Shown: positions 226 through 24,258 of the stretch, piece after piece | How the letters are laid out: each line of letters starts with the position of its first letter | Numbering within the stretch: position 1 is the stretch's first letter | DNA from: a virus | Length of the DNA stretch: 24,258 nucleotides | Direction: 5' to 3' (one strand) | Virus record (IMG/VR): IMGVR_UViG_3300014502_000033 | Location: 1-24,258 of that record | Notes under the pieces: model-generated | What the model was told of the DNA's origin: nothing | Databases searched by the model: none | What the model saw: the letters and a program-made list of their open reading frames with translations, nothing else | Made by a program: the position numbers and the translations under genes

Positions 226-534
226 ATGAAAAATAACTGGAAAACCTCTCTCGGTGGAGCAATCTCCATCACCGGGACAACGCTCATTGGAGTCGGCGTC
301 ATCACGACGCAAACGGAAGTCCCGTCAAAGGTGATCGTGGCGATCACGGTAGTCGGATTCGTCCTGTCGGCGCTTGGCAAGGGCATCACGGCTCTCTTCG
401 CAGCCGACGCTTCCACGGTCAGCAACGTTGCCGCCGCTGTGGACAAGATCAACGCGCTCGGGAGCGATCCCGGCCAGCCTCCTTCGCTCACCAAGCCACC
501 CTTCCCCGACAATCAACCCGCCAAAGTACCATGA
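226..534 (+). CDS. Small two-TM membrane protein, holin candidate
   Basis: The protein has 102 residues. A short polar, positively charged N-terminus (MKNNWK) precedes two hydrophobic stretches at about residues 8-27 and 34-52, followed by a polar Ala/Pro-rich C-terminal tail. Size and topology fit class II-like holins, which oligomerise in the inner membrane and time lysis. Its stop overlaps the start of the next gene, a lipoprotein, by an ATGA at 531-534, so translation is probably coupled. No purine-rich ribosome site is obvious before the ATG. The holin role is inferred from topology and neighbours; another small phage membrane protein is possible. Confidence 0.6.
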   Translation: MKNNWKTSLGGAISITGTTLIGVGVITTQTEVPSKVIVAITVVGFVLSALGKGITALFAADASTVSNVAAAVDKINALGSDPGQPPSLTKPPFPDNQPAKVP

Positions 535-881
535 AAATCCGTCTGCTCATCTCCATCCTCGCGCTGGCATTCGTTGTGCCGGCTGCCACGTTCACCATTA
601 CCGGCTGCTCGACCGCCCAGCAGACCGCCACCTACCTGACGCTCGAAGCCGTGGGCAAGAGCGCCAGGGCCAGCATGGACGCCTCCACCCAGCTCTTGAA
701 GCAGGGCGCAATCACTGTCGCTCAGTGGCAGAAAATCGCCAACGCCTACGACAACGACTTCCAGCCGGCCTACAATCTGGCCGTCGTTGCTGCCGGTTCT
801 TCCACCGCGCCCGCTCCCGCTGCCCTCGTGACCCAGCAAGCCACGTTCTCCGCCTCCGTAACTCAGTTGACTCCTCACTAA
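531..881 (+). CDS. Small lipoprotein with signal peptide and lipobox
   Basis: The protein has 116 residues. The N-terminus is a type II signal peptide: MKIR, a hydrophobic core at residues 5-21, then the lipobox I-T-G-C with lipidation Cys26. The mature part is Ala/Thr/Gln-rich and probably helical. Phage lipoproteins next to holin-like genes are often spanin components that act on the outer membrane late in lysis, but the mature part here is longer than a typical Rz1 and is not notably proline-rich. The lipoprotein call is firm; the spanin role is an inference from position. It overlaps the upstream gene by ATGA and is followed by the next ORF after 1 nt. Confidence 0.75.
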   Translation: MKIRLLISILALAFVVPAATFTITGCSTAQQTATYLTLEAVGKSARASMDASTQLLKQGAITVAQWQKIANAYDNDFQPAYNLAVVAAGSSTAPAPAALVTQQATFSASVTQLTPH

Positions 882-1154: not shown

Positions 1155-1505
1155 ATGCACGACCACGAATTGATCCACATTTTAGCCGACCTAGCCCACG
1201 ATGTCCGTGAGTTGGGGAAGCACGTAGCAGCAAACAATCAGAAAATAGGTGAACTCATGTCCCAAATCAGCGACTTCGTGGCCAAGCAGTCTGCGCACAA
1301 TCAGAAGGTCAGCAACGCACTCGACGCGATTAGCTCTGAGATCCAGAAGCTAAACGCTTACATCGCCGCCATCCAGAACTCCCCCGGCACACTGAGTGCC
1401 GCGGATCAAGCTTCCCTGGATGCCGCCGAAGCCAGTGGTCAGGCATTGGAAGACAAGGCGACCGCCCTTGCGGCCGTCACTCCTCCGACCGCCCCCGCCG
1501 TTTAA
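1155..1505 (+). CDS. Coiled-coil protein of unknown function
   Basis: The frame is open from a TTG at 1104, but the ATG at 1155 (MHDHELIHILADL) is the likelier start and gives 116 residues. Residues 1 to about 80 are a long amphipathic helix with regular hydrophobic spacing (ELGKHVAANNQKIGELM, ISSEIQKLNAYIAAIQ), consistent with a coiled coil. The C-terminus is Ala/Pro-rich (TPPTAPAV). Small coiled-coil proteins are common around phage tail and lysis genes, but no family was recognised. Confidence 0.6.
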   Translation: MHDHELIHILADLAHDVRELGKHVAANNQKIGELMSQISDFVAKQSAHNQKVSNALDAISSEIQKLNAYIAAIQNSPGTLSAADQASLDAAEASGQALEDKATALAAVTPPTAPAV

Positions 1506-1580: not shown

Positions 1581-1742
1581 ATGTCCCTCGCTCTCTGTTA
1601 CTGGATTCTGCTGCTCATCTACGTCGTCTTCGGAGCCTGGTCGGCTTGGCCGAACGTCCGCACGGGCGGCGGTAGTTTGATCGTGTTCCTGCTCTTGCTC
1701 GTCATCGGTTGGAAAGTGTTCGGAGCACCGCTACACTCCTGA
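1581..1742 (+). CDS. Very small two-TM membrane protein
   Basis: The frame can be read from a GTG at 1515, but the ATG at 1581 immediately precedes the hydrophobic part and gives a clean 53-residue protein. It has one hydrophobic segment at residues 2-20 (ALCYWILLLIYVVFGAW) and a second at about 33-49 (SLIVFLLLLVIGWKVFG), joined by a short polar loop WPNVRTGGG. This is a hairpin topology, typical of small phage membrane proteins including holins and antiholins. It is followed after 3 nt by a second membrane protein. The lysis role is inferred from topology and clustering. Confidence 0.6.
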   Translation: MSLALCYWILLLIYVVFGAWSAWPNVRTGGGSLIVFLLLLVIGWKVFGAPLHS

Positions 1743-1745
1743 ATC

Positions 1746-2078
1746 ATGGAGCCCGGCGACGCCCCCCCCGAGCCTCTTCCGGCGCCCGCGAAGGTAGGAG
1801 ACAAGAACGCCGCTCCAACCACGACGGCAGCGGAGGACTTGGTTACTCACGGACAGCGAAAGATAAATCTGATCTGGGAAGTCACCCAGTCGATCATCGC
1901 TCTGGCCGTGACCTCGTGCGTGCTGTACGTCGCCGCCCGACTGGTTTTGGACGGCTCGAGCAAAGACGCCGCGTTTCTGCTGCTGTCTAATGCTTTTTTC
2001 CTTGTCGTTAGCGTTTACATACAGCGGACCAACCACCAAAAGGTAGGAGGCGTCAAAGAGGGCGACATTGGTCGATGA
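1746..2078 (+). CDS. Two-TM membrane protein with Pro/Ala-rich N-terminus
   Basis: The protein has 110 residues. Residues 1-35 are acidic and proline-rich (EPGDAPPEPLPAPAK) and presumably soluble. Two hydrophobic segments follow, at about residues 48-68 (TQSIIALAVTSCVLYVAARLVL) and 75-93 (AAFLLLSNAFFLVVSVYIQ). A short basic and acidic tail ends the protein. It is holin-like in size and topology. Its stop codon overlaps the start of the receiver-domain gene (ATGA at 2075-2078), which would couple translation of a membrane protein and a response-regulator-like protein. Confidence 0.65.
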   Translation: MEPGDAPPEPLPAPAKVGDKNAAPTTTAAEDLVTHGQRKINLIWEVTQSIIALAVTSCVLYVAARLVLDGSSKDAAFLLLSNAFFLVVSVYIQRTNHQKVGGVKEGDIGR

Positions 2079-2512
2079 GCTGGAGCCTTTTCAACATTGA
2101 GAAAATCGACATTGGGCGCGTGTGTTTTCCGTGGCGCGTGCCTTCGGTGCTGATTGTCGAGGACAACAAGGTTGTTGCCACCTGCATCAGACTTGCTGCG
2201 GAAGCAGAGGGGTTCCGCGCGGTCGTCACCGAAACGGCGGCAGAGGCCCTTGGGGTACTGCATCACAACGGCAAAAATTACGTGTGTGCCGTAATTGACG
2301 TGCGGTTGGCTCCTCCGCCAGCAATGGATGGCTGGGAGCTTTGGCATGAAATCAAGGTCAAATGGCCCGAAATGCCAGCGAGAATGATCTCGATAGATTT
2401 TGACAATTTCCGGTCAATACCAAGGGGTGTTCCAGTCACTATCATGGTTAAAAACGGCCATCAAGAATGTCCGCGGTTTTATAGAGTAGTTTCGACTTTG
2501 TTTTTAGTTTAG
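2075..2512 (+). CDS. CheY-like response-regulator receiver (REC) protein
   Basis: This 145-residue protein has a 23-residue leader, then a REC fold. Strand 1 with the acidic pair is VLIVEDN (Glu29-Asp30). The phospho-acceptor position is Asp75 in VIDVRL. Ser106 in MISID takes the conserved Ser/Thr place and Lys126 in IMVKNG the conserved Lys. Spacing between these residues (45, 31, 20) is close to CheY (44, 30, 22). There is no DNA-binding output domain, so it is a single-domain regulator. In the family, phosphorylation at the Asp changes partner binding. Its start overlaps the stop of a two-TM protein, and it is the last plus-strand gene before the convergent early block. The REC assignment is strong; its role in the phage is unknown. 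Confidence 0.8.
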   Translation: MSWSLFNIEKIDIGRVCFPWRVPSVLIVEDNKVVATCIRLAAEAEGFRAVVTETAAEALGVLHHNGKNYVCAVIDVRLAPPPAMDGWELWHEIKVKWPEMPARMISIDFDNFRSIPRGVPVTIMVKNGHQECPRFYRVVSTLFLV

Positions 2513-2702
2513 CGGCGCGCTCTTCGAGGTACTCGGCTACTTGGATGATTTCCGATGCTTCGACCGGAATCGAACCAGTCGCTACAGAAAACGCGCCTGA
2601 CTGGGGCCGTTGATCCGATAGGCCGGGTACGCTCGACCCGTCTTTGTTCCGCACGTCGCCCATCTTGGCGACGCCTTGCTCAAGTGTCTTTTGGAGTGGC
2701 AT
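2448..2702 (-). CDS. Small early protein, unknown
   Basis: This 84-residue minus-strand protein is the last gene of the early block. The N-terminal part is polar; the C-terminal half is helical and charged (IIQVAEYLEERAAKLKTKSKLLYKTADIL). Residues 36-43 (AFSVATGS) belong to a short DNA repeat that also occurs at 3298-3324 and 3939-3962. Its last 65 bp overlap the 3' end of the receiver-domain gene tail to tail. No family was recognised. Confidence 0.55.
   Translation of the reverse strand: MPLQKTLEQGVAKMGDVRNKDGSSVPGLSDQRPQSGAFSVATGSIPVEASEIIQVAEYLEERAAKLKTKSKLLYKTADILDGRF
2571..2594. repeat. Dispersed 24-bp repeat, copy A
   Basis: The plus-strand sequence begins CGAACCAGTCGCTACAG. It matches copy C (3939-3962) at 21 of 24 positions, and its first 17 bases match copy B (3298-3314) at 16. 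On the minus strand it encodes AFSVATGS inside the 2448-2702 gene. Confidence 0.5.
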
Positions 2703-2707
2703 AGGTT

Positions 2708-3052
2708 TTAGGGTTTGTTTCCGCTCGGCGCGTTCCTGACCTCCGCGTTAGACCCACGCTGAAGGCGGTCGATTTCTGCGGCTATCAGCGCCCCGGCCTT
2801 GGTGAGTTCGCGGACGCGATCATTCGGAGTCGGCTTCCACCATTTTGAATCCCACGGCCAGAGCGCATTCAGGAAGTTTGCAAAGCGTTTTAGCGGCTCC
2901 CCCCAACATCGAACATCCGGCGGCAATGCGTAGCACGCGGCGGCCAGGGCCAGTTGATTTTCGTCGTGTTCATCGTCGTGCCCGGCCGACCATTTCTCGA
3001 CTGAGATTTGTCGGACGCGTTCGTCTGCGATCAATTCGGTTCCAGTTTTCAT
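2708..3052 (-). CDS. Conserved phage protein, ERxRQI / KAGALIAAEIDRLQR type
   Basis: The protein has 114 residues. It carries the signature of a family seen in many phages: GTELIADERVRQISVEKW near the start, then an acidic H-D-D-E-H-D segment, a WPWDSKWWKP segment around residues 69-78, and RELTKAGALIAAEIDRLQR at about 82-100. The family is helical and of unknown function to me. The conserved acidic, His and Glu residues recall MazG-like all-alpha nucleotide pyrophosphohydrolases, but I cannot confirm this by eye. The start at 3052 is the only ATG before the conserved region. Confidence 0.75.
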   Translation of the reverse strand: MKTGTELIADERVRQISVEKWSAGHDDEHDENQLALAAACYALPPDVRCWGEPLKRFANFLNALWPWDSKWWKPTPNDRVRELTKAGALIAAEIDRLQRGSNAEVRNAPSGNKP

Positions 3053-12789: not shown

Positions 12790-12829
12790 CACCTTGCGCA
12801 CGTTCTTTCGCGCCGGCTAGCGCAAGGTG
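12790..12829. repeat. 10-bp perfect inverted repeat with 20-nt spacer
   Basis: CACCTTGCGC (12790-12799) and GCGCAAGGTG (12820-12829) are perfect complements. It may be a hairpin in the leader RNA or an operator with two half-sites. It stands 21 bp before the terminator-like hairpin. Confidence 0.55.
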
Positions 12830-12850
12830 TCCATTTTCCGTGTCAGTTTG

Positions 12851-12883
12851 AAACCTCCGCGTCTAGCCGCACGGAGGTTTTTT
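12851..12883 (+). terminator. Terminator-like hairpin overlapping the HNH ribosome site
   Basis: AAACCTCCG (12851-12859) pairs with CGGAGGTTT (12872-12880) around a 12-nt loop, followed by a T-run to 12883 (six Ts at 12878-12883). This is a typical intrinsic terminator in plus orientation. The 3' arm contains GGAGG, the only ribosome-binding site of the HNH gene that starts at 12884. Confidence 0.6.
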
Positions 12884-13276
12884 ATGGAAATTTGGAGACC
12901 CATCAAACGTTTCAACCGATATGAGATAAGCTCCATCGGTCGCATTCGCGTCACCGAGCATGATGCGCTTCGCGGAAGATACGTTGTAACCTATAGGGCG
13001 CGCATCCTTCGCCCTCAACTCAGGAAGGGCTACCCTTCGTTTTATTTTGGTTCGGATAAACAGAAAACACGCGTTCAGCTTCATCGTCTGGTGGCGGAAG
13101 CGTTCATTCCAAATCCAGATTCTCTCCCTGTTGTTAATCACAAGAATGCAATTCGGTGCGATAATAGGGTTGAGAATCTTGAGTGGGTAACTGCGGCACA
13201 AAACGTCCGGCATTCGCTTGCTCTTCGTTTCCCGCTTTATGATTCAGAGCCTTACCACACCGAATTGACGGGCTAA
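12884..13276 (+). CDS. NUMOD4/HNH homing-type endonuclease
   Basis: The ATG at 12884, 7 nt after GGAGG, gives 130 residues; the frame is open further upstream but without protein-like sequence. Residues 2-22 (EIWRPIKRFNRYEISSIGRI) are a NUMOD4 motif. The HNH core is LHRLVAEAFIPNP (His67), then VNHKNAIRCDNRVENLEWVT (Asn85-His86, Asn94, Asn98), and the tail AAQNVRHS is typical. Such free-standing enzymes nick or cut phage DNA and spread by homing. It is the first plus-strand gene and its ribosome site lies in a terminator-like stem. The family assignment is strong; the target is unknown. Confidence 0.85.
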   Translation: MEIWRPIKRFNRYEISSIGRIRVTEHDALRGRYVVTYRARILRPQLRKGYPSFYFGSDKQKTRVQLHRLVAEAFIPNPDSLPVVNHKNAIRCDNRVENLEWVTAAQNVRHSLALRFPLYDSEPYHTELTG

Positions 13277-13709
13277 GCAAACTTCTTGGTTAATCGAACC
13301 TATGATATAAACGTTCTTTTTCGGGTTTCTTCTTTGGCCATGGTAGCGCGCAGGCGAAAAAGGGAACTCCCTTCCGACCGCGCAAGAGTAGGCCAAGGAA
13401 AAGCCCCGCAGGTTTCTCCCTTCGGCCGCGGTCACGAACGAGCCAAGCCCGAGAACCCAAAGAGCCGAGAGCCGGCCCCTCTCAGTAAATCGGCCCCGCT
13501 GGGTGGTAGTTGGCGCAAAGTCCTGCATCGGTGTTCGACGAGGTTTTCACCCGTGCAGGCAAGAGAGACGAAGCGAAGGACCGCAAGGGCAGAAGCCAAC
13601 CGCCAAACCCATCGGCGCGCGACGCTCTGGCCCAAAACGCCAGAAAGCCTCGCTCGGCCCGAAGGGCAGACTTGATCCGATCCGACTCCGAAGCGCAGCG
13701 CCAAGCCCC
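13277..13709. other. 433-bp gap without a convincing gene
   Basis: The plus frame from 13286 or 13340 is open to 13675 but gives an Arg/Pro-rich product without domain character, and minus-strand frames here are similar. Visible items are a TTGACG at 13265-13270 inside the end of the HNH gene with GTTAAT 18 bp further on, an AT-rich TATGATATAA at 13301-13310, and a small hairpin AAGGG/CCCTT at 13360-13373. Its place before an HNH gene and the terminases makes it a candidate for the packaging (cos or pac) site, but I see no direct proof. Confidence 0.4.
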
Positions 13710-14072
13710 ATGAAATACCAAGAGTACATGCAATCGGAGCACTGGAGACTTTTGCGCGGGGCCAAACTCCAGATTTCGCCACGTTGCGAGCGGTGCCGAA
13801 GCAAAGCCGAACTTGAAGTTCACCACGTCGTCTATCGGCCGGATCTGTGCGCGTGCAGCGTCGCCGACCTTCAGACGCTTTGCCACGGCTGCCACATCGC
13901 CGAGCACTCGAAAGCATGGCCGAGAATTGCGCCATGCACCAAAGCCGAAGACACCGCGCAGCGCATCCGCCAAAGGATCGAGCGCCTATCCCGCCTGAAG
14001 CAGACCCCAAGGCGAATCGCCAAGATTGCCAACGCGCAAGCCCGACTCCGAAGGCTGATCGCCCCTGAATAG
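13710..14072 (+). CDS. HNH endonuclease adjacent to terminase genes
   Basis: The ATG at 13710 (MKYQEYMQSEHWRLLRGAKL) is the standard start for this type; the longer frame upstream is low complexity. It has 120 residues. Zinc ligands are Cys26-x2-Cys29 and Cys58-x2-Cys61. The HNH core is LEVHHVVYRPDL (His38, His39), then ADLQTLCHGCHIAEH. The C-terminal helix is basic (QRIRQRIERLSRLKQ). HNH proteins just upstream of the terminases often assist terminase cutting in phages, which is the likely role here. The family is clear; the role is inferred from position. Confidence 0.85.
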   Translation: MKYQEYMQSEHWRLLRGAKLQISPRCERCRSKAELEVHHVVYRPDLCACSVADLQTLCHGCHIAEHSKAWPRIAPCTKAEDTAQRIRQRIERLSRLKQTPRRIAKIANAQARLRRLIAPE

Positions 14073-14907: not shown

Positions 14908-15390
14908 ATGGCCGGCGCCACCAACCGCGACTTTGACGCGGAAGTGCTCGCACGCATCGCTGAGGGAGAAAGCCTACGCGGTATCTGCTCAGACCTCAAG
15001 GAGTTCGGTTGCCCGGCAGCAAGCACTTACTGCGGAAGGGTGATTGATGACAAGCAGTTTGCCGAACGCTACGCGCGCGCGAGGGATATGCAGTTTGAGG
15101 CGTGGTCCGATGAGATACGGCGTGCATCGCAAAAGCACAGGGAAGGCGAGATCGTAACGGAGAAAGGTGACGGCACTGTAGAGCGCAAGCACGTCGATTG
15201 CGTAGAGCGCAGCAAGCTGGAAGTGGACTCGCTGAAATGGCTGCTCTCAAAGCTGAAGCCCGGGCGCTACGGCGATAAGCTGGCGGTTACGGGCGCGGAG
15301 GGCGGGCCTCTGGTGGTGCAGTGGATGGCGCCGGGTGCGAGCGTGACGACAACGGTGACGCACGCCACAACAGAGCCGAAAAGCGAATGA
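14908..15390 (+). CDS. terS: Terminase small subunit
   Basis: The protein has 160 residues. The N-terminal HTH region is AEVLARIAEGESLRGICSDL, then an oligomerisation helix region (DKQFAERYARARDMQFEAWS), an acidic/basic stretch, and the C-terminal segment VDSLKWLLSKLKPGRYGDKL. The K.W....L.P..YGDK ending is typical of the Sf6 gp1-like and related small subunits, which bind the packaging site and feed DNA to the large subunit. The tail after 135 is Thr-rich. The large subunit follows two small genes later, as expected. Confidence 0.8.
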   Translation: MAGATNRDFDAEVLARIAEGESLRGICSDLKEFGCPAASTYCGRVIDDKQFAERYARARDMQFEAWSDEIRRASQKHREGEIVTEKGDGTVERKHVDCVERSKLEVDSLKWLLSKLKPGRYGDKLAVTGAEGGPLVVQWMAPGASVTTTVTHATTEPKSE

Positions 15391-15632
15391 GCTTGCAGGG
15401 CGCACAGCCGGCTAACCCCGCGCCGCAGTACCAGACCGGGAGCATGGCGACGCCGGAGGGGATGCAGAGGGGCAAGCCCTGGCAGCGCGAGGAGCTCGAG
15501 GGAGAGGGCAACCCCGGCGACACGATGGCCAGCCGGGAACGCGCGCAGCTCATCCAGCGCAAGACGCTCGGATTCCTCGAGCCCAGCAGCCCAGGCGGCA
15601 GCATTACGGGGCGACGCGAGGGAGGGTTTTAG
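15387..15632 (+). CDS. Small disordered protein between the terminase genes
   Basis: The ATG at 15387 overlaps the terS stop (ATGA) and gives 81 residues. It is Pro/Gly/Gln/Arg-rich (GAQPANPAPQYQTGSM, GKPWQREELEGEGNPGD, SSPGGSITGRREGGF), with one helical part (MASRERAQLIQRKTLGFL). It is predicted largely disordered. Coupling to terS suggests a packaging or head accessory, but no family was recognised. Confidence 0.55.
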   Translation: MSLQGAQPANPAPQYQTGSMATPEGMQRGKPWQREELEGEGNPGDTMASRERAQLIQRKTLGFLEPSSPGGSITGRREGGF

Positions 15633-15635
15633 AGC

Positions 15636-15860
15636 ATGACACTTCACATCATTGTAATTGAAACCCGCGTGAATCAAAAGAGCCCGTGGTGGTGGTTCGG
15701 ATTAAAAACGATTCGGCAAACCCCCCACCTGTGTATTGTTCCTGACGAAGCTGATCTAATGACGAGGGAAGACGCCACCAGCAAGGCAGCTAAGGAACTT
15801 GCGAAGCGTGGCGTTAAATGGGATGAGATCAACGCTTGGGGGCAGGAGTGGTTTTACTGA
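15636..15860 (+). CDS. Small alpha/beta protein, unknown
   Basis: The protein has 74 residues. An N-terminal strand (MTLHIIVIETRV) and a Trp-rich loop (KSPWWWFGLK) come first, then TPHLCIVPDEADLMTRE, and a helix DATSKAAKELAKRGVKWDEI, ending NAWGQEWFY. GGGAGGG lies about 11 nt before the ATG. It is followed after 1 nt by the large terminase gene. No family was recognised. Confidence 0.6.
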   Translation: MTLHIIVIETRVNQKSPWWWFGLKTIRQTPHLCIVPDEADLMTREDATSKAAKELAKRGVKWDEINAWGQEWFY

Positions 15861-15861
15861 C

Positions 15862-17283
15862 ATGCCGCTCGTCACGATACCGTACACCCCGCGCGATGCC
15901 TTCGCTGGCTTCCATGCACGCAAGCAGCGATGGGCGGAAGTCATCTGCCACCGGAGAGCAGGCAAGACCGTTGCCGCAGTCAATGACCTGCAACGCGCCG
16001 CGCTATCGCTCCACCTTCCGCCAGAGCAGGCAGTGAACCCGCCCCGTTTTGCCTTCATGGCCCCGACGCGGGTACGCGCCAAGGAAATCGCATGGGAATA
16101 CCTGAAGCGATTCGCCCTTCCCATACCTGGAATCAAGATCAGCGAGAGCGAGCTCTTTGTCGAATACCCCAACAAGGGACGTGTGACGATCTATGGGAGT
16201 GACAATGACCGCGGCATGGGGCTGTACTTGGATGGCATTGTGATGGACGAGTGCGATGAGATTTCGCCAGTTGTGGATTCCATCGTCGTGCCGGCGCTTG
16301 GTGATCGCAAGGGCTGGCAAGTCAAAATGGGCATTCTGCGCGGGCGGCATAATCTGCTCAAGGAGTTCGAGCGATACCGCGGCCGTGCCGACCACTTTCA
16401 ACTCATGCTGCGCGCGAGTGAGAGCGGCATTCTCGACGATGAGGAAATGGCCATCCAACGCGAGAAGATCGGCGACGCGGCGTACAACATGCAATTTGAG
16501 TGCGACGTGACGGCGAGCCTGGCCGCGGCGATCTATGGTGCCTGCATGGACACGACGCGCAAGGATGGCCGGCTGCGCGCAATGGCCGTTGATTCCGAGT
16601 CGCCCCTCTACACCTTCTGGGACATCGGACACAGCGACATCGGCGACTGCTGGGCCATCTGGCTCGTGCAGTTCAGCGGGCGGGACATCATCCTGCTCGA
16701 CTGCTACTCGCGCACGGGATACACGCCGGCGCACTACGCCCTGAAAACAAAGGAGTGGGAGAGCGATTACAACAATTTCGTCGGCGCGCATTACCTGCCG
16801 CACGATGGCGCGCAGCATGACCAGCACGGCAAGAGCACGAGAGATTACCTGCTCGACGCCGGATTGCGCAACGTCAAGATCGTGCATCGCACGCCGAGCG
16901 TATGGGATTCAATCGGGCACCTGCGCGGCATGTTCTCGCGCATCTACATCAACAGCGTGAAATGCACGGTCGGCTATCAGCCCCCGGGGTCAATGGCAGA
17001 CGGAAGCCCGCTGGCCGAAGTGCCGAGCGGTGTTGACTCGCTCGACTACTACTCGAAGAAAGAGGATACAGTAAACAACATCATCACGGACGTGGTTGTT
17101 CACAACCAGTATTCCCATTTGTGCGATGCGCTCCGCACGATGGCCGAGGCAGACCGGAGCAAGATGCTGGAGGGGATGAGCGTGACGGCTAAGGCTTCGC
17201 GCCAGATGCCGAAAAAGGTATTGCGCGGCCCGGGTGAAGGTGCTTATCCGATGAGGCGCGGCCCGGCGCAAGTGCTGCGCTGA
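15862..17283 (+). CDS. terL: Terminase large subunit
   Basis: The ATG at 15862 follows the upstream stop by 1 nt and gives 473 residues. The N-terminal ATPase has an adenine-side segment (YTPRDAFAGFHARKQRW), Walker A at residues 29-36 (CHRRAGKT), an APTR motif (67-70) and Walker B LDGIVMDE with Asp129-Glu130. The C-terminal RNase H-like nuclease begins near 250 (YTFWDIGHSDIG, Asp254) and continues with LLDCY (Asp280) and HYLPHDG (Asp315). It pumps DNA into the prohead through the portal and cuts the concatemer. All catalytic positions appear intact, and the portal is encoded four small genes downstream. Confidence 0.92.
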   Translation: MPLVTIPYTPRDAFAGFHARKQRWAEVICHRRAGKTVAAVNDLQRAALSLHLPPEQAVNPPRFAFMAPTRVRAKEIAWEYLKRFALPIPGIKISESELFVEYPNKGRVTIYGSDNDRGMGLYLDGIVMDECDEISPVVDSIVVPALGDRKGWQVKMGILRGRHNLLKEFERYRGRADHFQLMLRASESGILDDEEMAIQREKIGDAAYNMQFECDVTASLAAAIYGACMDTTRKDGRLRAMAVDSESPLYTFWDIGHSDIGDCWAIWLVQFSGRDIILLDCYSRTGYTPAHYALKTKEWESDYNNFVGAHYLPHDGAQHDQHGKSTRDYLLDAGLRNVKIVHRTPSVWDSIGHLRGMFSRIYINSVKCTVGYQPPGSMADGSPLAEVPSGVDSLDYYSKKEDTVNNIITDVVVHNQYSHLCDALRTMAEADRSKMLEGMSVTAKASRQMPKKVLRGPGEGAYPMRRGPAQVLR

Positions 17284-17293
17284 ATTTCCTGCC

Positions 17294-17608
17294 ATGCACA
17301 TAGCAAACCAAGCTACTACCAACACGGAGCAGATCAAGTCTCAGGATCGCACGGCCGTGGGGAACAAGCCGGACGAGACGCCGGTGGGTGGCGGGACAAC
17401 GGGTAGCGGTGGGGGAGGCGGCGGCGGAGGGGTGACAGGCAACAAGCTGCTGGGGGCGGGCACAGGCGCAATCATCGACTCGGGGGCCGGCAAGTGGTTT
17501 GTGACGCACAACGATTGCAGCGAAGCCTCCACGGCGCTGACGAACAGCGGCGGGGCGAATTCAGCGGGGACGCGCTATGTCGGGCAGAACATGGGAGTGG
17601 ACCTGTGA
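17294..17608 (+). CDS. Glycine-rich small protein
   Basis: This 104-residue protein starts MHIANQATTNTEQIKSQD. The middle is a Gly/Thr/Ser linker (GGGTTGSGGGGGGGGVTG), and the end has GAIIDSGAGKWFVTHNDCSE and TRYVGQNMGVDL. The linker comes from G-rich DNA around 17400-17440. It may be a short virion or head-associated protein with a flexible linker; I recognise no family. It lies between terL and the portal gene. Confidence 0.55.
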   Translation: MHIANQATTNTEQIKSQDRTAVGNKPDETPVGGGTTGSGGGGGGGGVTGNKLLGAGTGAIIDSGAGKWFVTHNDCSEASTALTNSGGANSAGTRYVGQNMGVDL

Positions 17609-17618
17609 TGAGCTGACC

Positions 17619-17942
17619 ATGCCCTCGGTCGAACAGCGCGCGCGGGAGTTGCTGGCGCAGGTTGATCCGGCGGCAACATGGGAGGAGATGATCGCCTACT
17701 ATGGCACGGCGCCCAACGTCATAATCCAGACCGAGCGGATGTTTCTGGCCGCGGAGCCGTTTTATCTGGCCGGCTATGGCCGGGCGTGGTTTTGCTATCT
17801 GCTCGTGGGTTCGATCTCCGAAGCATTGGCGCTGGCACCCTACGAGTTGCCGTACCTCGCCTGGGGGCGCGCCAAAACCAAAAGCTTGCATTTTACGAGA
17901 ACTGAACGCATACGTGCCTTAACTCATCATGGGCGGATTTAA
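17619..17942 (+). CDS. Small protein upstream of portal, unknown
   Basis: The frame opens at 17577, but that start overlaps the previous gene by 32 bp; the ATG at 17619 gives 107 residues. A helical start (SVEQRARELLAQVDPAATWE) leads to IAYYGTAPNVIIQTERMFLA, AEPFYLAGYGRAWFCYLLVG and helical ends. Position and size invite comparison with the GNAT-like internal virion proteins of T7-type phages, but the acetyl-CoA loop is not visible, so the function is left open. Confidence 0.55.
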   Translation: MPSVEQRARELLAQVDPAATWEEMIAYYGTAPNVIIQTERMFLAAEPFYLAGYGRAWFCYLLVGSISEALALAPYELPYLAWGRAKTKSLHFTRTERIRALTHHGRI

Positions 17943-18264
17943 TGCCAAACATTTCGCTGACCCTCTCGGGCTTACTATCGGAAAAGGCCAGGGGGGGGGC
18001 GCGAAAAACTTCTGGGACCCGGCAGGTCTTTTCACCAACAATGGGAATAACGCGGCAAGTGCCATTGATTCTGCCCCGGTGCCGGTGCCGGCTCCGCCCG
18101 TGACCGCCGATAGCGCCGAAGTCCTCGCGGCGCAAAAGGACTTGGCCCGGCAAAACCTGCTCAAGAAGTCGGTCAAGAAGACGATCTTCGCGGGCGACAC
18201 GAGCACGAATATGGGCGGGCCGGGCAGCCCGATGCTGCCGCCGGCCAGCTATAAGAAGGGATAA
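17929..18264 (+). CDS. Small Gly/Pro-rich head-region protein with G9 tract
   Basis: The protein has 111 residues. The start GGFNAKHFADPLGLTIGKG is followed by FWDPAGLFTNNG. This DP-x-G style is common in small proteins next to podovirus portals. A Pro-rich linker (APVPVPAPPV) and a basic helix (AAQKDLARQNLLKKSVKK) follow, ending in GGPGSPMLPP. It overlaps the upstream gene by 14 bp. A run of nine Gs (17991-17999) encodes GGG within it and may be prone to slippage. Function is unknown. Confidence 0.6.
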   Translation: MGGFNAKHFADPLGLTIGKGQGGGAKNFWDPAGLFTNNGNNAASAIDSAPVPVPAPPVTADSAEVLAAQKDLARQNLLKKSVKKTIFAGDTSTNMGGPGSPMLPPASYKKG

Positions 18265-18268
18265 TGAA

Positions 18269-18403
18269 ATGGCCAAATCCACCAAATCGAAGCGGTACAA
18301 GAAGGGCGACATTGTGATGATCGACGGAAAGCCGCACATCATTACTAAAACCTATCTGGGCGGAATTGCTGCACGGGGAAAGCCAGTCAAAAAGGTCCGA
18401 TAA
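18269..18403 (+). CDS. 44-residue basic protein between head genes
   Basis: The frame ATG 18269 to TAA 18403 encodes 44 residues: MAKSTKSKRYKKGDIVMIDG, then KPHIITKTYLGGIAARGKPV and KKVR. It is highly basic, with an SH3-like strand pattern (GDIVMIDGKPHIITKT). It starts 4 nt after the previous gene and ends 1 nt before the portal ATG, with AAGGG about 7 nt upstream, so it is a genuine tiled gene. A nucleic-acid-binding or portal accessory role is possible but not shown. Confidence 0.6.
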   Translation: MAKSTKSKRYKKGDIVMIDGKPHIITKTYLGGIAARGKPVKKVR

Positions 18404-18404
18404 C

Positions 18405-20147
18405 ATGGCTGATAAACTTTCGAAAGAGCTTCTGGAGAGGTACGGAGGTCTAAAATCTAAGAGAGACGGAATTTGGCTTTCGGACTGGCAGTATATTTCG
18501 CAATATGCGCTACCGAAGGACAGCGACATCCAGACGACGAAGACCGAGGGCGTGAGCGGCTGGACGGAATTGGTTTTCGACACGACGATGATTGAGGCGG
18601 CGCACGCGCTGAAGACGGGACAATACAACTGGCTGACGCCGCCGAATCAGCCGTGGGGCGAGTACGTCGTTCCCGACGAGCTGAAGACAAAGGACGACGA
18701 CGACCCGGGCATTGACGAGGCGACGAAATGGCTGGCTCATGCGAGTGACGTCATCCGCGAGGAGCGAGCGCGGTCTAATTTCTATTCCGTGGTGGACATG
18801 GCTTATCTGGGCGTGTCGGTATTTGCGACGGACTTGATGATCGTGGAGGAGGGAAAGAAGACGCTGTTCAACTATCGGCACGCTCGGATCGGAACGTACT
18901 GCATCGAGGAGGACGATGAGGGAGTGGTCGATACCACGTTTCGCGAGTTCGAGATGACGTACCGGCAGGCGAAGCAATTGTTCCAGCGGAAGGACGACAA
19001 GATTCCCGAGGACATGGAGCGGCAGTGTCGCGGGGCAAAGGGGCTGGGCAAGAAGTTCAAGTTTCTGCATTGCATTTTCCCCCGGGAGGACAGCGACCGT
19101 TTGCCGGAGCGCAAGGATGGGGCGAACAAGCCGGTCGCGTCGGTTTACATTGCGATGGATTTTCCGAATGAGGAGCCGGTTCGGGTGTCTGGCTACGACG
19201 AGCAGCCGGCGCTCTGCCAGCGGTTTTCCAAGTGGGGCACGGATTCGCCTTGGGGTTACGGGCCGTCGTATCTGGCTTTGCCGATTGCTCGGCAGTTGAA
19301 CTACGTGCAGCAGTTCCTTGACGCACTCGCGGAGCTGCACGCCTATCCGCGAGTGCTGACCCCGGATAATTTGGATGGCGACGTCGATCTTCGAGCCGGC
19401 GGCAACACAGTTTACGACTCGGCCAACCCCAACGCCAAGCCCGAGGAGTGGGCGACGGTGGGTGACTACAAGTTGGGCATGGAAATGCAGGAGCAGCGGC
19501 GAGAACAACTGCGCGACGCCTTTATGAACAAGGCCTTCAAGTTGCTAAATTCGATGCCGCTGCTCGACAAGAAGATGACGGCCTTCGAGATTGCGCAGCG
19601 GCAGGCTGAGCAGTTGGGCGACTTCACCCCGACGCTGGGCCGGCGCATCACGGAGTTCCTGAATCCGCTCATGATGCGGGAATTTGGCATTGCGTACCGG
19701 GCGGGCAAACTGGGGCAGGCTCCCGATTCTCTGATGGTGGACTTGGGCAACGGCAAGCGTGGATTGGCGATGCCCAAGGTTGTCATCTCGAATCGGCTGA
19801 CCGATGCGCTTAAGGCGCTGAAGAACCGGGCCACCGAGGAGACATTTCAGTTCCTCATGCCGCAGGTCGAAACGAACCCCCAGGTGCTCGACATTTTCGA
19901 CATGGACAAGGTGAACGCCGACTACGCGCTGAACTCCGGCATGGCGCCCGATTCGATGCGGCCGAAGAAGGGTGCCAATAGCGTCGCAGCCATCCGGCAG
20001 GCGCGCGCGCAACAGATCAAGGCGCAGCAGGCCGCGCAAGCGGCGGAGCAGTTGGGCAAGGCCGGAGCGGGGCTCGGCAAGTCGCCGCAGTTCCTTCAGG
20101 ATGCCGCCGAGGAGCAGATGACCGGCGGCAAGAGCCAAGCGGCTTAG
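18405..20147 (+). CDS. Portal (head-to-tail connector) protein, podovirus type
   Basis: The ATG at 18405 gives 580 residues. The opening KLSKELLERYGGLKSKRDGI and WLSDWQYISQYALPKDSD, then FDTTMIEAAHALKTGQYNWL and PPNQPWGEYVVPDE, are the hallmark of the podovirus head-to-tail connecting family. The middle carries RYETQ-like segments such as MTYRQAKQLF and SPWGYGPSYLALPIARQLNY. Late helices (KMTAFEIAQRQAEQLGDFTP) would form the wing and crown, with an Ala/Gln-rich tail. It forms the dodecameric ring through which TerL packs DNA and to which the tail attaches. Expected length for the family is 500-600. Confidence 0.92.
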   Translation: MADKLSKELLERYGGLKSKRDGIWLSDWQYISQYALPKDSDIQTTKTEGVSGWTELVFDTTMIEAAHALKTGQYNWLTPPNQPWGEYVVPDELKTKDDDDPGIDEATKWLAHASDVIREERARSNFYSVVDMAYLGVSVFATDLMIVEEGKKTLFNYRHARIGTYCIEEDDEGVVDTTFREFEMTYRQAKQLFQRKDDKIPEDMERQCRGAKGLGKKFKFLHCIFPREDSDRLPERKDGANKPVASVYIAMDFPNEEPVRVSGYDEQPALCQRFSKWGTDSPWGYGPSYLALPIARQLNYVQQFLDALAELHAYPRVLTPDNLDGDVDLRAGGNTVYDSANPNAKPEEWATVGDYKLGMEMQEQRREQLRDAFMNKAFKLLNSMPLLDKKMTAFEIAQRQAEQLGDFTPTLGRRITEFLNPLMMREFGIAYRAGKLGQAPDSLMVDLGNGKRGLAMPKVVISNRLTDALKALKNRATEETFQFLMPQVETNPQVLDIFDMDKVNADYALNSGMAPDSMRPKKGANSVAAIRQARAQQIKAQQAAQAAEQLGKAGAGLGKSPQFLQDAAEEQMTGGKSQAA

Positions 20148-22471: not shown

Positions 22472-23361
22472 GCGAAGTAATCACTCCTCCTGTTACTCCT
22501 CCGGTAACACCGCCCGTTACGCCTGACGCCAGCACGCCGTTTCATACCGACTGGCTGAAGTCTGACGGCACGCTCAACCCGTCCAGCTACGACCGTCTTC
22601 CCGAGGACGTGCGCTGGATGAAGGACACCCTCGGCAAGTACAAGACGCCCGAAGAGTTGATCCGCGGCACGGCCAACCTCGTCACCGCCGTAGGGAAGAA
22701 GGGGCTCATCCCACTACCCGACAATGCGCCGCCAGAGGCCCGCGCCGAACGCACGGCCATGCTCGACGCCATCAACGGCGTCCCGAAGGAGGCCAAGGAC
22801 TACGGCATCACCAAGCCGCAGGACTTGCCCGACGCCGCGTGGAATCAACCGCTCACGGACGCATTCACGAAATGGGCCAAGGAGAACAGCGTCAGCCCCG
22901 CCGCGGCAAAGAAACTTATTGCGATCACTGCCGAAAGCATGAAGGGCCAGCTCGCCTCGCAGTCGCAATACGAGAAAGATTTCTTCGACGGTCACGCCAA
23001 GGCATTCGAGGCGACGGTGAGGCAGGAGAACATCGCGATAGACAAAGCGAACGCGCTGGCGGAGCGCGGCGCCACGGCGCTGGGATTCGATCTCCAAAAG
23101 CCAGAAATGCAAATGCTGATGAAGAATTCGGCGGTGCGGCTAGCAATGATGCGCCACGCCATCCAGACCGGCGAGGACTCATTCATCAAGGGAGACGAGC
23201 AGGTGGGCGATAACAACCCCATGGCGCTCGCGCAGGACGCGACGCACAACAAGGCGAACCCACTCTACGAGCCGTTGCACGATCCGTCCCATCCGCAGCA
23301 CCGGATGGCGAAGGAGAAACTGGACGGCTGGTGGCGGGCAGCGTCGGCGAAGAAGTCATGA
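22468..23361 (+). CDS. Scaffold-like capsid assembly protein
   Basis: The protein has 297 residues. The N-terminus has a Pro-Thr-Val repeat (VTPPVTPPVTPPVTP), then WLKSDGTLNPSSYDRLPEDV, RWMKDTLGKYKTPEELIRGT and ANLVTAVGKKGLIPLP. A helical region follows (LTDAFTKWAKENSVSPAAAK, ENIAIDKANALAERGATALG), with a charged C-terminus ending KEKLDGWWRAASAKK. The layout of a W-L..DG.L...Y..LPE lead, a helical core and a basic end, encoded between portal and capsid, matches podovirus scaffolding proteins that guide capsid assembly and then leave or are cleaved. GGAGG precedes the start. Confidence 0.75.
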   Translation: MSEVITPPVTPPVTPPVTPDASTPFHTDWLKSDGTLNPSSYDRLPEDVRWMKDTLGKYKTPEELIRGTANLVTAVGKKGLIPLPDNAPPEARAERTAMLDAINGVPKEAKDYGITKPQDLPDAAWNQPLTDAFTKWAKENSVSPAAAKKLIAITAESMKGQLASQSQYEKDFFDGHAKAFEATVRQENIAIDKANALAERGATALGFDLQKPEMQMLMKNSAVRLAMMRHAIQTGEDSFIKGDEQVGDNNPMALAQDATHNKANPLYEPLHDPSHPQHRMAKEKLDGWWRAASAKKS

Positions 23362-23639
23362 TTCGACCCTTGCGCGATCTCCTTGTAATCCGGCCGCTCA
23401 AGCAGCCCGGGATGATCGGACTGATTCACATTCCCGACACCGAACGCTGCCGGGACAAAACCGGCGTGTGGGCGGAAGTCGTCGCGGCTGGTCCAAAGGT
23501 GGAACTGGCCCATGTCGGCACGAAGGTTCACGTCGCGGCCTACGGCTCGCATCTGGCGGGTGACGAGGTAACGGTGGACGGCGAAGTGCTCACGCTCATC
23601 AGGGAGCGGGACATCAACGGAGTGGAGGCGAAGTCATGA
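23358..23639 (+). CDS. GroES-like co-chaperonin
   Basis: The ATG at 23358 overlaps the scaffold stop (ATGA); the longer frame is a shadow. The protein has 93 residues. MIRPLRDLLVIRPLKQPG is the first strand pair, GMIGLIHIPD the mobile-loop region, then GVWAEVVAAGPKVELAHVGT, KVHVAAYGSHLAGDEV and VDGEVLTLIRERDINGV. This matches the GroES/Cpn10 order RPL.DRV.V.......GGI..P, G.V...G.G, G..V....Y.G......G..Y....E.DI.. Phage versions such as T4 gp31 replace or join host GroES to fold capsid protein. The family call is good; its substrate is inferred from neighbours. Confidence 0.8.
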   Translation: MIRPLRDLLVIRPLKQPGMIGLIHIPDTERCRDKTGVWAEVVAAGPKVELAHVGTKVHVAAYGSHLAGDEVTVDGEVLTLIRERDINGVEAKS

Positions 23640-24258
23640 ACGCCCAAGCTCTCGCGTCGCTCAAGGGCGGCATGTGGCAGGATTGGCAGAAGCGCGTGGA
23701 GGCGGCAGGCGGTCAATTCGCCAAGTCGCCGCTCTACGTCGAACAAGATAGCATACTGGAAGAAGAGTTTCGCCGCGTCGCAACACGGGTCGGGTTTGAT
23801 GGCGTGTACGACGTAGGCGGGGAACGGCGCGATGTTCCATTCGGGGCGCGCACGGTCGATACCTGCTTCGGCTGGGTTACGCGCATGTGGCTCGACTCGA
23901 ATACGGAGATCCATTTTCTCTACAAATACCTCCCCGAGTTGGACAAGATGCGCGTGCTCGACATCGGAGCGGGATACGGCCGGTTGGCGGTCGCGCTGGA
24001 GCCGCACGCTAAATTGGTGGCGTGCGTGGACGCAGTTCCAATCTCAACCAAGCTTTGCCGGAAATATGTGGAGGATTTCGGCACAGAAATTCCCGTGCTT
24101 TCGATCCAGCAGTTCATCGACGGTTATGCGCACATGCGGTTCGATCTCGCGATCAACATTCACTCGTGGAACGAATGCACTCTGGAGCAAGTTGAGGCGT
24201 GGCTGTACGTGCTGGTTGAAACGAAGGTGCCGTATCTGTTCACCGTGGCTTACAGCCA
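23636..24258 (+). CDS. Class I SAM-dependent methyltransferase (3' end outside window)
   Basis: The ATG at 23636 overlaps the co-chaperonin stop (ATGA), with GGAGG 8 nt upstream. 207 codons are seen before the window ends. A polar N-terminal region (SLKGGMWQDWQKRVEAAG, GVYDVGGERRDVPFG) is followed by EIHFLYKYLPELDKM. The SAM site is VLDIGAGYGRLAVALE, with the acidic residue of motif II in CVDAVP. Then FDLAINIHSWNEC and WLYVLVETKVPYLFTVAYS follow. The sequence style recalls putative sugar O-methyltransferases; the substrate cannot be fixed. It may modify phage or host glycans or small molecules. Confidence 0.75.
   Translation, partial: MNAQALASLKGGMWQDWQKRVEAAGGQFAKSPLYVEQDSILEEEFRRVATRVGFDGVYDVGGERRDVPFGARTVDTCFGWVTRMWLDSNTEIHFLYKYLPELDKMRVLDIGAGYGRLAVALEPHAKLVACVDAVPISTKLCRKYVEDFGTEIPVLSIQQFIDGYAHMRFDLAINIHSWNECTLEQVEAWLYVLVETKVPYLFTVAYS

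Follow-up and report, generated by a model that had tools for sequence, protein, structure and literature searches.

Introduction

The single-domain response regulator Osp of Rhodobacter sphaeroides inhibits the kinase CckA without phosphorylation and is active even with its Asp replaced (PMC9430884). EpsW, also a single-domain regulator, acts on a membrane-bound transferase (PMC12802240), and host kinases are bound by the phage protein PIT4 (PMC10714779). In receivers, an Ala or Gly after the conserved Ser/Thr keeps the active site accessible. Pseudo-receivers more often lose the catalytic Lys and this small residue, changes that are linked with weak or no phosphorylation, yet need not abolish it (PMC12632262).

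Receivers of Alteromonas phages have been labelled auxiliary metabolic or host-recognition genes, for example as PhoB (PMC8228385). For Alteromonas phage R8W, the holin g46 and the endolysin g43 were reported and were not linked to the receiver gene g48 (PMC8228385). A literature search with most subscription journals outside its scope found no paper linking receivers to phage lysis. The timing of phage lysis is usually explained by the accumulation of holin and the state of the membrane.

Gene layout of the record

The window, the whole stretch of 24,258 nt that was analysed, is a complete viral record, and probably represents an incomplete phage genome in which most tail genes are missing. 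Its right half carries the small and large terminase subunits and a podovirus-type head-tail adaptor, and its middle a leftward gene block with a RecE-like exonuclease and an Erf-like annealing protein. At the left end, the + strand carries a series of small ORFs, the last of which is the receiver (REC) gene, and this series converges on the leftward block. The features are as follows, with transmembrane stretches abbreviated as TM.

226..534, + strand: two-TM ORF of 102 aa, a second holin-like candidate by hydropathy, matching no family
531..881, + strand: likely lipoprotein of 116 aa, by hydropathy and sequence (signal with Gly-Cys)
1155..1505, + strand: soluble, probably coiled-coil ORF of 116 aa, with weak coiled-coil-type matches only and no TM
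1581..1742, + strand: small two-TM ORF of 53 aa, by hydropathy, matching no family
1746..2078, + strand: two-TM membrane protein of 110 aa, a holin candidate by synteny only, of an undescribed phage family
2075..2512, + strand: predicted single-domain REC protein of 145 aa, by Pfam, structure model and family profile
2448..2702, − strand: convergent ORF that closes the leftward block and shares 65 nt with the 3' end of REC
14908..20147, + strand: terminase small and large subunits and head-tail adaptor (portal), indicating a podovirus-type phage

The original prediction had placed the REC gene behind a run of lysis-type genes. This description is plausible for a stretch with several small TM and lipoprotein ORFs, but no endolysin was recognised among the ORFs scanned in the window. 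Relatives of the convergent ORF 2448-2702 were not found in the viral collections searched, nor were close viral relatives of the RecE-like gene.

Further genes were observed elsewhere in the window. An ORF of 114 aa (2708-3052, − strand) matches the C-terminal part of many PHROG families (6628, 9434, 9763 and others) and is a predicted widely shuffled phage domain. Two HNH endonuclease genes (12827-13276 and 13503-14072, + strand) precede the packaging module; the first has a low GC3 of 0.47, as expected of a mobile insertion. The ORF 23331-23639 (+ strand, likely start 23358) is Cpn10/GroES-like, with 21.8 bits against a Pfam cut-off of 21.1. Its relatives, at 36%, occupy the same place in the portal-relative contigs L055, L056, L058, L062 and L065, and the ORF is a candidate phage co-chaperonin. 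The frame 23637-24258 (+ strand), which runs off the right end, contains a VLDIGAGYGRLA-type methyltransferase motif.

Domain and fold of the REC protein

The ORF 2075-2512 matched the Pfam family PF00072 (Response_reg) with an E-value of 8e-9 and 36.1 bits (curated cut-off 30.2), over profile positions 1-79 of 111. It also matched PHROG 731, 5982 and 20458. A home-made receiver profile, built without this ORF, gave 35.7 bits, and the best of 1000 shuffles reached 5.1 bits, which ruled out chance similarity to receivers. The domain comprises residues 22-145, preceded by a short extension (residues 1-21). The receiver stands alone in the 145-aa ORF, in line with the earlier statement that there is no output domain.

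An AF2 model, made with a 16-row alignment, showed a full (beta-alpha)5 fold with a pLDDT of 77 and a pTM of 0.71. In its first half, beta1 (24-28), alpha1 (32-44), beta2 (48-52), alpha2 (55-68) and beta3 (69-75) follow one another. The second half consists of alpha3 (86-96), beta4 (102-106), a short alpha4 (109-114), beta5 (121-123) and alpha5 (133-143), and the last 25 residues have a pLDDT of about 56-61. Since the alignment was made up of receivers, the model supports the assignment and is not fully independent of it. A model from the single sequence reached a pLDDT of 32 and was discarded. Foldseek with the retained model returned 446 solved chains at E ≤ 0.001, receivers on top, and VIA-align gave Z-scores of 16.9 to the NtrX receiver (4d6x) and 16.5 to 2rdm.

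The original prediction had claimed a receiver fold, to be checked by structure prediction and a search of REC families. Both agreed with it: receivers were the top matches, and the Pfam score of 36.1 bits, the modelled (beta-alpha)5 fold and the Z-score of 16.9 identify the ORF, by profile and by model, as a true receiver domain.

Active site

The residues expected to form the active site are encoded at these positions.

2159..2164, + strand: codons of Glu29-Asp30, the acidic metal-binding pair after beta1
2297..2299, + strand: codon of Asp75, the predicted phospho-acceptor at the end of beta3
2390..2395, + strand: codons of Ser106 (the conserved Ser/Thr) and Ile107; Gly is at the 107 position in 10/10 family members
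2450..2458, + strand: codons of Lys126-Asn127-Gly128, replacing the invariant Lys-Pro-Phe/Tyr, one residue off register

In the model, Glu29-Asp30, Asp75 and Ser106 lie at the ends of beta1, beta3 and beta4. All five response-regulator positions had been reported as kept; this is borne out for Glu29, Asp30, Asp75 and Ser106, but not for Lys126, which is out of register and has lost its Pro. After beta5, all ten close family members read K-P-(F/Y), where the window has M-V-K126-N127-G128. The ungapped alignment with these ten places Asn127 in the Lys column and K126 one residue early, with the Pro lost. Directly after the Ser/Thr, the same ten have Gly and the window REC has Ile107. With the catalytic Lys displaced and the site possibly crowded by Ile107, it is uncertain whether the window REC is phosphorylated. 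The protein is thus best described as a borderline pseudo-receiver, with a doubtful fifth position.

Two artefacts were considered and rejected. A frameshift masking the KPF motif was sought by reading the other two frames, which contain no such motif. The C-terminus is not junk antisense of ORF 2448-2702, since its GVP and STL stretches align with the family.

Family and origin

In a tblastn search against plasmids, the best full-length matches were orphan single-domain regulators of Mesorhizobium (query 15-143, 29%). A family profile of ten members, from plasmids of Mesorhizobium, Sulfitobacter, Sphingobium, Sinorhizobium and Bradyrhizobium, scored the window REC at 50.0 bits, compared with 35.7 for the general receiver profile, and aligned to residue 127. 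The only close solved structure was 2rdm, from Sinorhizobium medicae. By similarity, the nearest family is that of the alphaproteobacterial orphan single-domain response regulators. No annotated kinase gene adjoined these regulators at the plasmid loci inspected, and a search of the window for a kinase partner, made with HisKA only, found none.

No close relative of the window REC was found in the viral contigs or phage records searched. Many matches in the 'phages' collection were bacterial-looking contigs (bulk fecal, Listeria and Acinetobacter sets) and were excluded as phage evidence. The GC3 of the REC gene is 0.57, compared with 0.68-0.79 in its + strand neighbours, and falls to 0.36 in its last quarter. 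The lower GC3 fits a later acquisition.

The upstream membrane protein and its pairing with REC

The upstream protein had been called a two-TM, holin-like protein. Hydropathy confirmed two TM stretches in ORF 1746-2078, at residues 50-68 and 75-93. A profile search with this protein found 47 viral relatives, in which the motifs R-x-x-N-x-x-W-E-x-T-Q ... Y-x-x-R-T-N flank the two TMs. With 16 members tested, no Pfam or PHROG family scored above noise and no known holin family was matched; the protein belongs to an undescribed phage membrane-protein family. A cell-wall hydrolase was the immediate neighbour in 6 of about 46 relatives: Hydrolase_2 (L008, L035), Amidase_3 (L026), phage lysozyme (L028), GH108 (L044) and one N-acetylmuramidase. 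In L003, an M15 peptidase lies upstream. Several relatives overlap their neighbour by ATGA, and others adjoin capsid, portal or connector genes. The layout of L025 is similar to that of the window, with the membrane-protein gene followed by at least one further gene and then by convergent RecE/Erf genes, and a different gene occupies the REC slot. The evidence on the holin-like label is mixed: the two TMs and the hydrolase neighbours speak for it, but known holin families do not match and head genes are the neighbours elsewhere. From synteny only, the protein is a plausible holin candidate.

The start of the REC gene overlaps the stop of the membrane-protein gene by 4 nt (2075..2078, + strand; ATGA), as had been noted. 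Translational coupling, also claimed, is made possible by this overlap, but is not special to it, as six further ATGA overlaps occur elsewhere in the window. The original prediction named absence of the pair from related phages as a refuting outcome, and this is what was found for the exact pair: a receiver above the Pfam cut-off was present in 0 of the 47 records carrying the membrane protein and in 0 of 13 portal-protein relatives, all of which are fragments. The exact pair of membrane protein and REC is private to the window.

Receivers in the lysis regions of Alteromonas phages

Relatives were traced from a CheY-like protein (149 aa) that Alteromonas phage V22 encodes and that appeared in the fold search. 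In V22, the late region contains a papain-like amidase, ORF29, the REC gene (ORF30), an Rz-shaped protein, a two-TM protein, small genes and convergent genes. Phage A5 (Schitoviridae) has a REC gene (gp11) followed by an Rz-shaped protein, a two-TM protein and an endolysin. In R9Y1, a TM coiled coil, the REC gene (gp12) and a lysozyme are joined by ATGA-type overlaps. The Autographiviridae R8W (REC gp48) and H4/4 (REC gp44) encode a class II holin, a one-TM protein, the receiver, a TM protein and TerS. Phage PB15 has a 101-aa TM coiled coil, the REC gene, Peptidase_M15_3 and GTA_holin_3TM, and then convergent genes; XX1924 has the same layout, with a TM coiled coil, the REC gene and then GTA_holin_3TM. 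In V19, a one-TM protein overlaps the receiver, both between tail genes. In each of the seven Alteromonas phage records searched, the REC gene was the single PF00072 match. Most of the lysis-region receivers retain the catalytic Lys.

Stand-alone receivers thus recur in or beside the lysis genes of several unrelated Alteromonas phages of several morphotypes, as seen among the receiver hits followed up, which were those with isolate phages behind them. They share a host genus, and one gene may in part have spread by transfer. The gene immediately before the receiver encodes a small membrane or coiled-coil protein in most of the Alteromonas phages followed, and these upstream proteins are related within the pairs V22/A5, R9Y1/H4-4 and PB15/XX1924, which suggests that the receiver and its upstream partner form modules that move. 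Although the exact pair of the window is absent from its relatives, the wider idea of receivers among lysis genes is better supported because of the Alteromonas phages.

Some details of single loci were also recorded. Small TM coiled-coil proteins lie upstream of the receivers in L097, L100, L101, L103 and L104. The upstream proteins of R9Y1 and H4/4 share 25% (E 2e-9), and those of PB15 and XX1924 have their TM at the C-terminus. The V19 receiver (L101 3498-3950) no longer has the phospho-Asp region or the Lys, while its overlapping TM partner gene is kept, and is a predicted phage pseudo-receiver. Stenotrophomonas phage Bhz63 was considered as a further stand-alone case and rejected; its regulator is a complete OmpR-type protein rather than a lone receiver.

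Possible roles of the receiver

Both roles offered in the original prediction, tuning of lysis timing and drain of phosphate from a host pathway, are inferred, and control by phosphate is made less likely for the window REC by its displaced Lys and the Ile behind Ser106. The explanation we prefer, tentatively and in the knowledge that it may well be wrong, is that the REC protein is a captured, host-derived receiver of the orphan type, made late and acting by contact, through which host two-component signalling would bear on lysis or on late infection. It builds on the observed domain, fold, family and position of REC and on the observed recurrence of lysis-region receivers. The phage would have captured a single-domain receiver of the alphaproteobacterial orphan type from a host and placed it at the end of the late operon, behind the two-TM membrane protein. 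Presumably produced late in infection, the receiver would work through protein-protein contact, as proteins of this type do. Its partner would be a sensor kinase or phosphorelay of the host, or else a membrane protein from the lysis region, and binding of this kind would couple the two-component signalling of the host to lysis or to late infection. For the window REC, phosphate-independent contact action is at least as likely as phosphorylation, and we favour contact over a strict phospho-switch. Where receivers lie, among or next to lysis genes, suggests that they are expressed late and have a part in lysis or late infection. Location by itself is no proof of a role in lysis, since the ends of late operons also gather unrelated cargo. 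Against the proposal, the exact pair is not kept, the viral collections searched gave no close relative of the window REC, the Alteromonas receivers are of another lineage and share a host genus, some relatives of the membrane protein adjoin capsid or portal genes, and no endolysin was recognised in the fragment.

A host-directed decoy with no tie to lysis, which would titrate or inhibit a host kinase or phosphorelay in stress, envelope, motility or exopolysaccharide control from a late region that is merely a tolerant site, is doubtful but still a serious possibility. Orphan single-domain regulators such as Osp are known to act in this way, and PIT4 is an example of a phage protein directed at host kinases. 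Among relatives, the gene behind the membrane protein also varies (endolysins, head genes, unknowns), and the GC3 of REC (0.57, compared with 0.68-0.79) is as for acquired cargo. However, the receivers of PB15, R9Y1, A5 and H4/4 lie inside and not just beside the lysis genes, in frames that overlap or abut.

It is quite improbable that the gene is a recently acquired, decaying passenger without function in the phage. The lack of REC relatives in the related phages searched, the degenerate Lys-Pro motif, the GC3 of 0.36 in the last quarter and the 65-nt overlap with ORF 2448-2702 would all fit decay, but the frame is open and homology persists beyond the degenerate motif as far as the C-terminus (GVP, STL), which argues against a truncated relic. 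Least probable of all, and very unlikely, is a phospho-switch, the strict form of the lysis-timing idea in the original prediction. Asp75 would receive phosphate from a host kinase or a small phosphodonor, and the coupled two-TM protein would change its activity in response to the phosphorylated receiver. The kept Asp75, acidic pair and Ser106, the ATGA overlap and the Lys of most Alteromonas lysis-region receivers favour it, but the off-register Lys, the lost Pro and the Ile107 after Ser106 are of a kind linked with weak or no phosphorylation (PMC12632262), and the membrane-protein family goes without a receiver in 47/47 records.

A broader reading concerns lysis-region receivers at large. 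These would be a recurrent, independently captured part of lysis modules, and with a small membrane or coiled-coil partner they would let host two-component signalling, or the state of a host kinase, advance or delay lysis. We consider this general form unlikely, if well short of negligible. That receivers recur among lysis genes in unrelated phages is of greater interest than the one occurrence in the window. If such receivers function there, they would allow host signals to act directly on when lysis occurs; alternatively, they would be a phage tool to silence host signalling at the end of infection. Isolates exist for PB15, R9Y1, R8W, H4/4, A5 and V22, which are therefore open to ordinary genetics.

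Comparison with known systems

By its description, Osp resembles the window REC in being a single-domain protein with the phospho-site Asp present and an imperfect active site, and it binds a kinase (PMC9430884). In contrast to the window REC, it is chromosomal and has no acidic pair, which the window REC keeps. The cyclic-phosphate processing receiver domain of jumbo phages, cREC, is likewise a divergent receiver fold carried by phages (PMC7824862), but is tied to NAD/ADP-ribose enzymes, none of which were seen here. The window REC passes the PF00072 cut-off, and the fold search placed cREC models further down.

The orphan alphaproteobacterial regulators (e.g., WP_199200804.1 of Mesorhizobium, and 2rdm) share 29-30% similarity with the window REC over the full length, together with the GWEL, ISxD and GVPxSI stretches, and neither has an output domain. 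The window REC differs in being phage-borne, in its longer beta3-alpha3 loop and 21-residue N-terminal extension, in the Lys-Asn-Gly that stands off register for Lys-Pro-Phe, and in the Ile for Gly after the Ser.

The receivers of the Alteromonas phages belong to another lineage, most of them keep the catalytic Lys and their host is known. Upstream of them lies a small coiled-coil protein, in most cases with a single TM, and not a member of the window's two-TM family. Like the window REC, these CheY-like proteins are stand-alone and encoded in a late or lysis-type region behind a small TM or coiled-coil gene, and the frames mostly overlap, as they do in the window.
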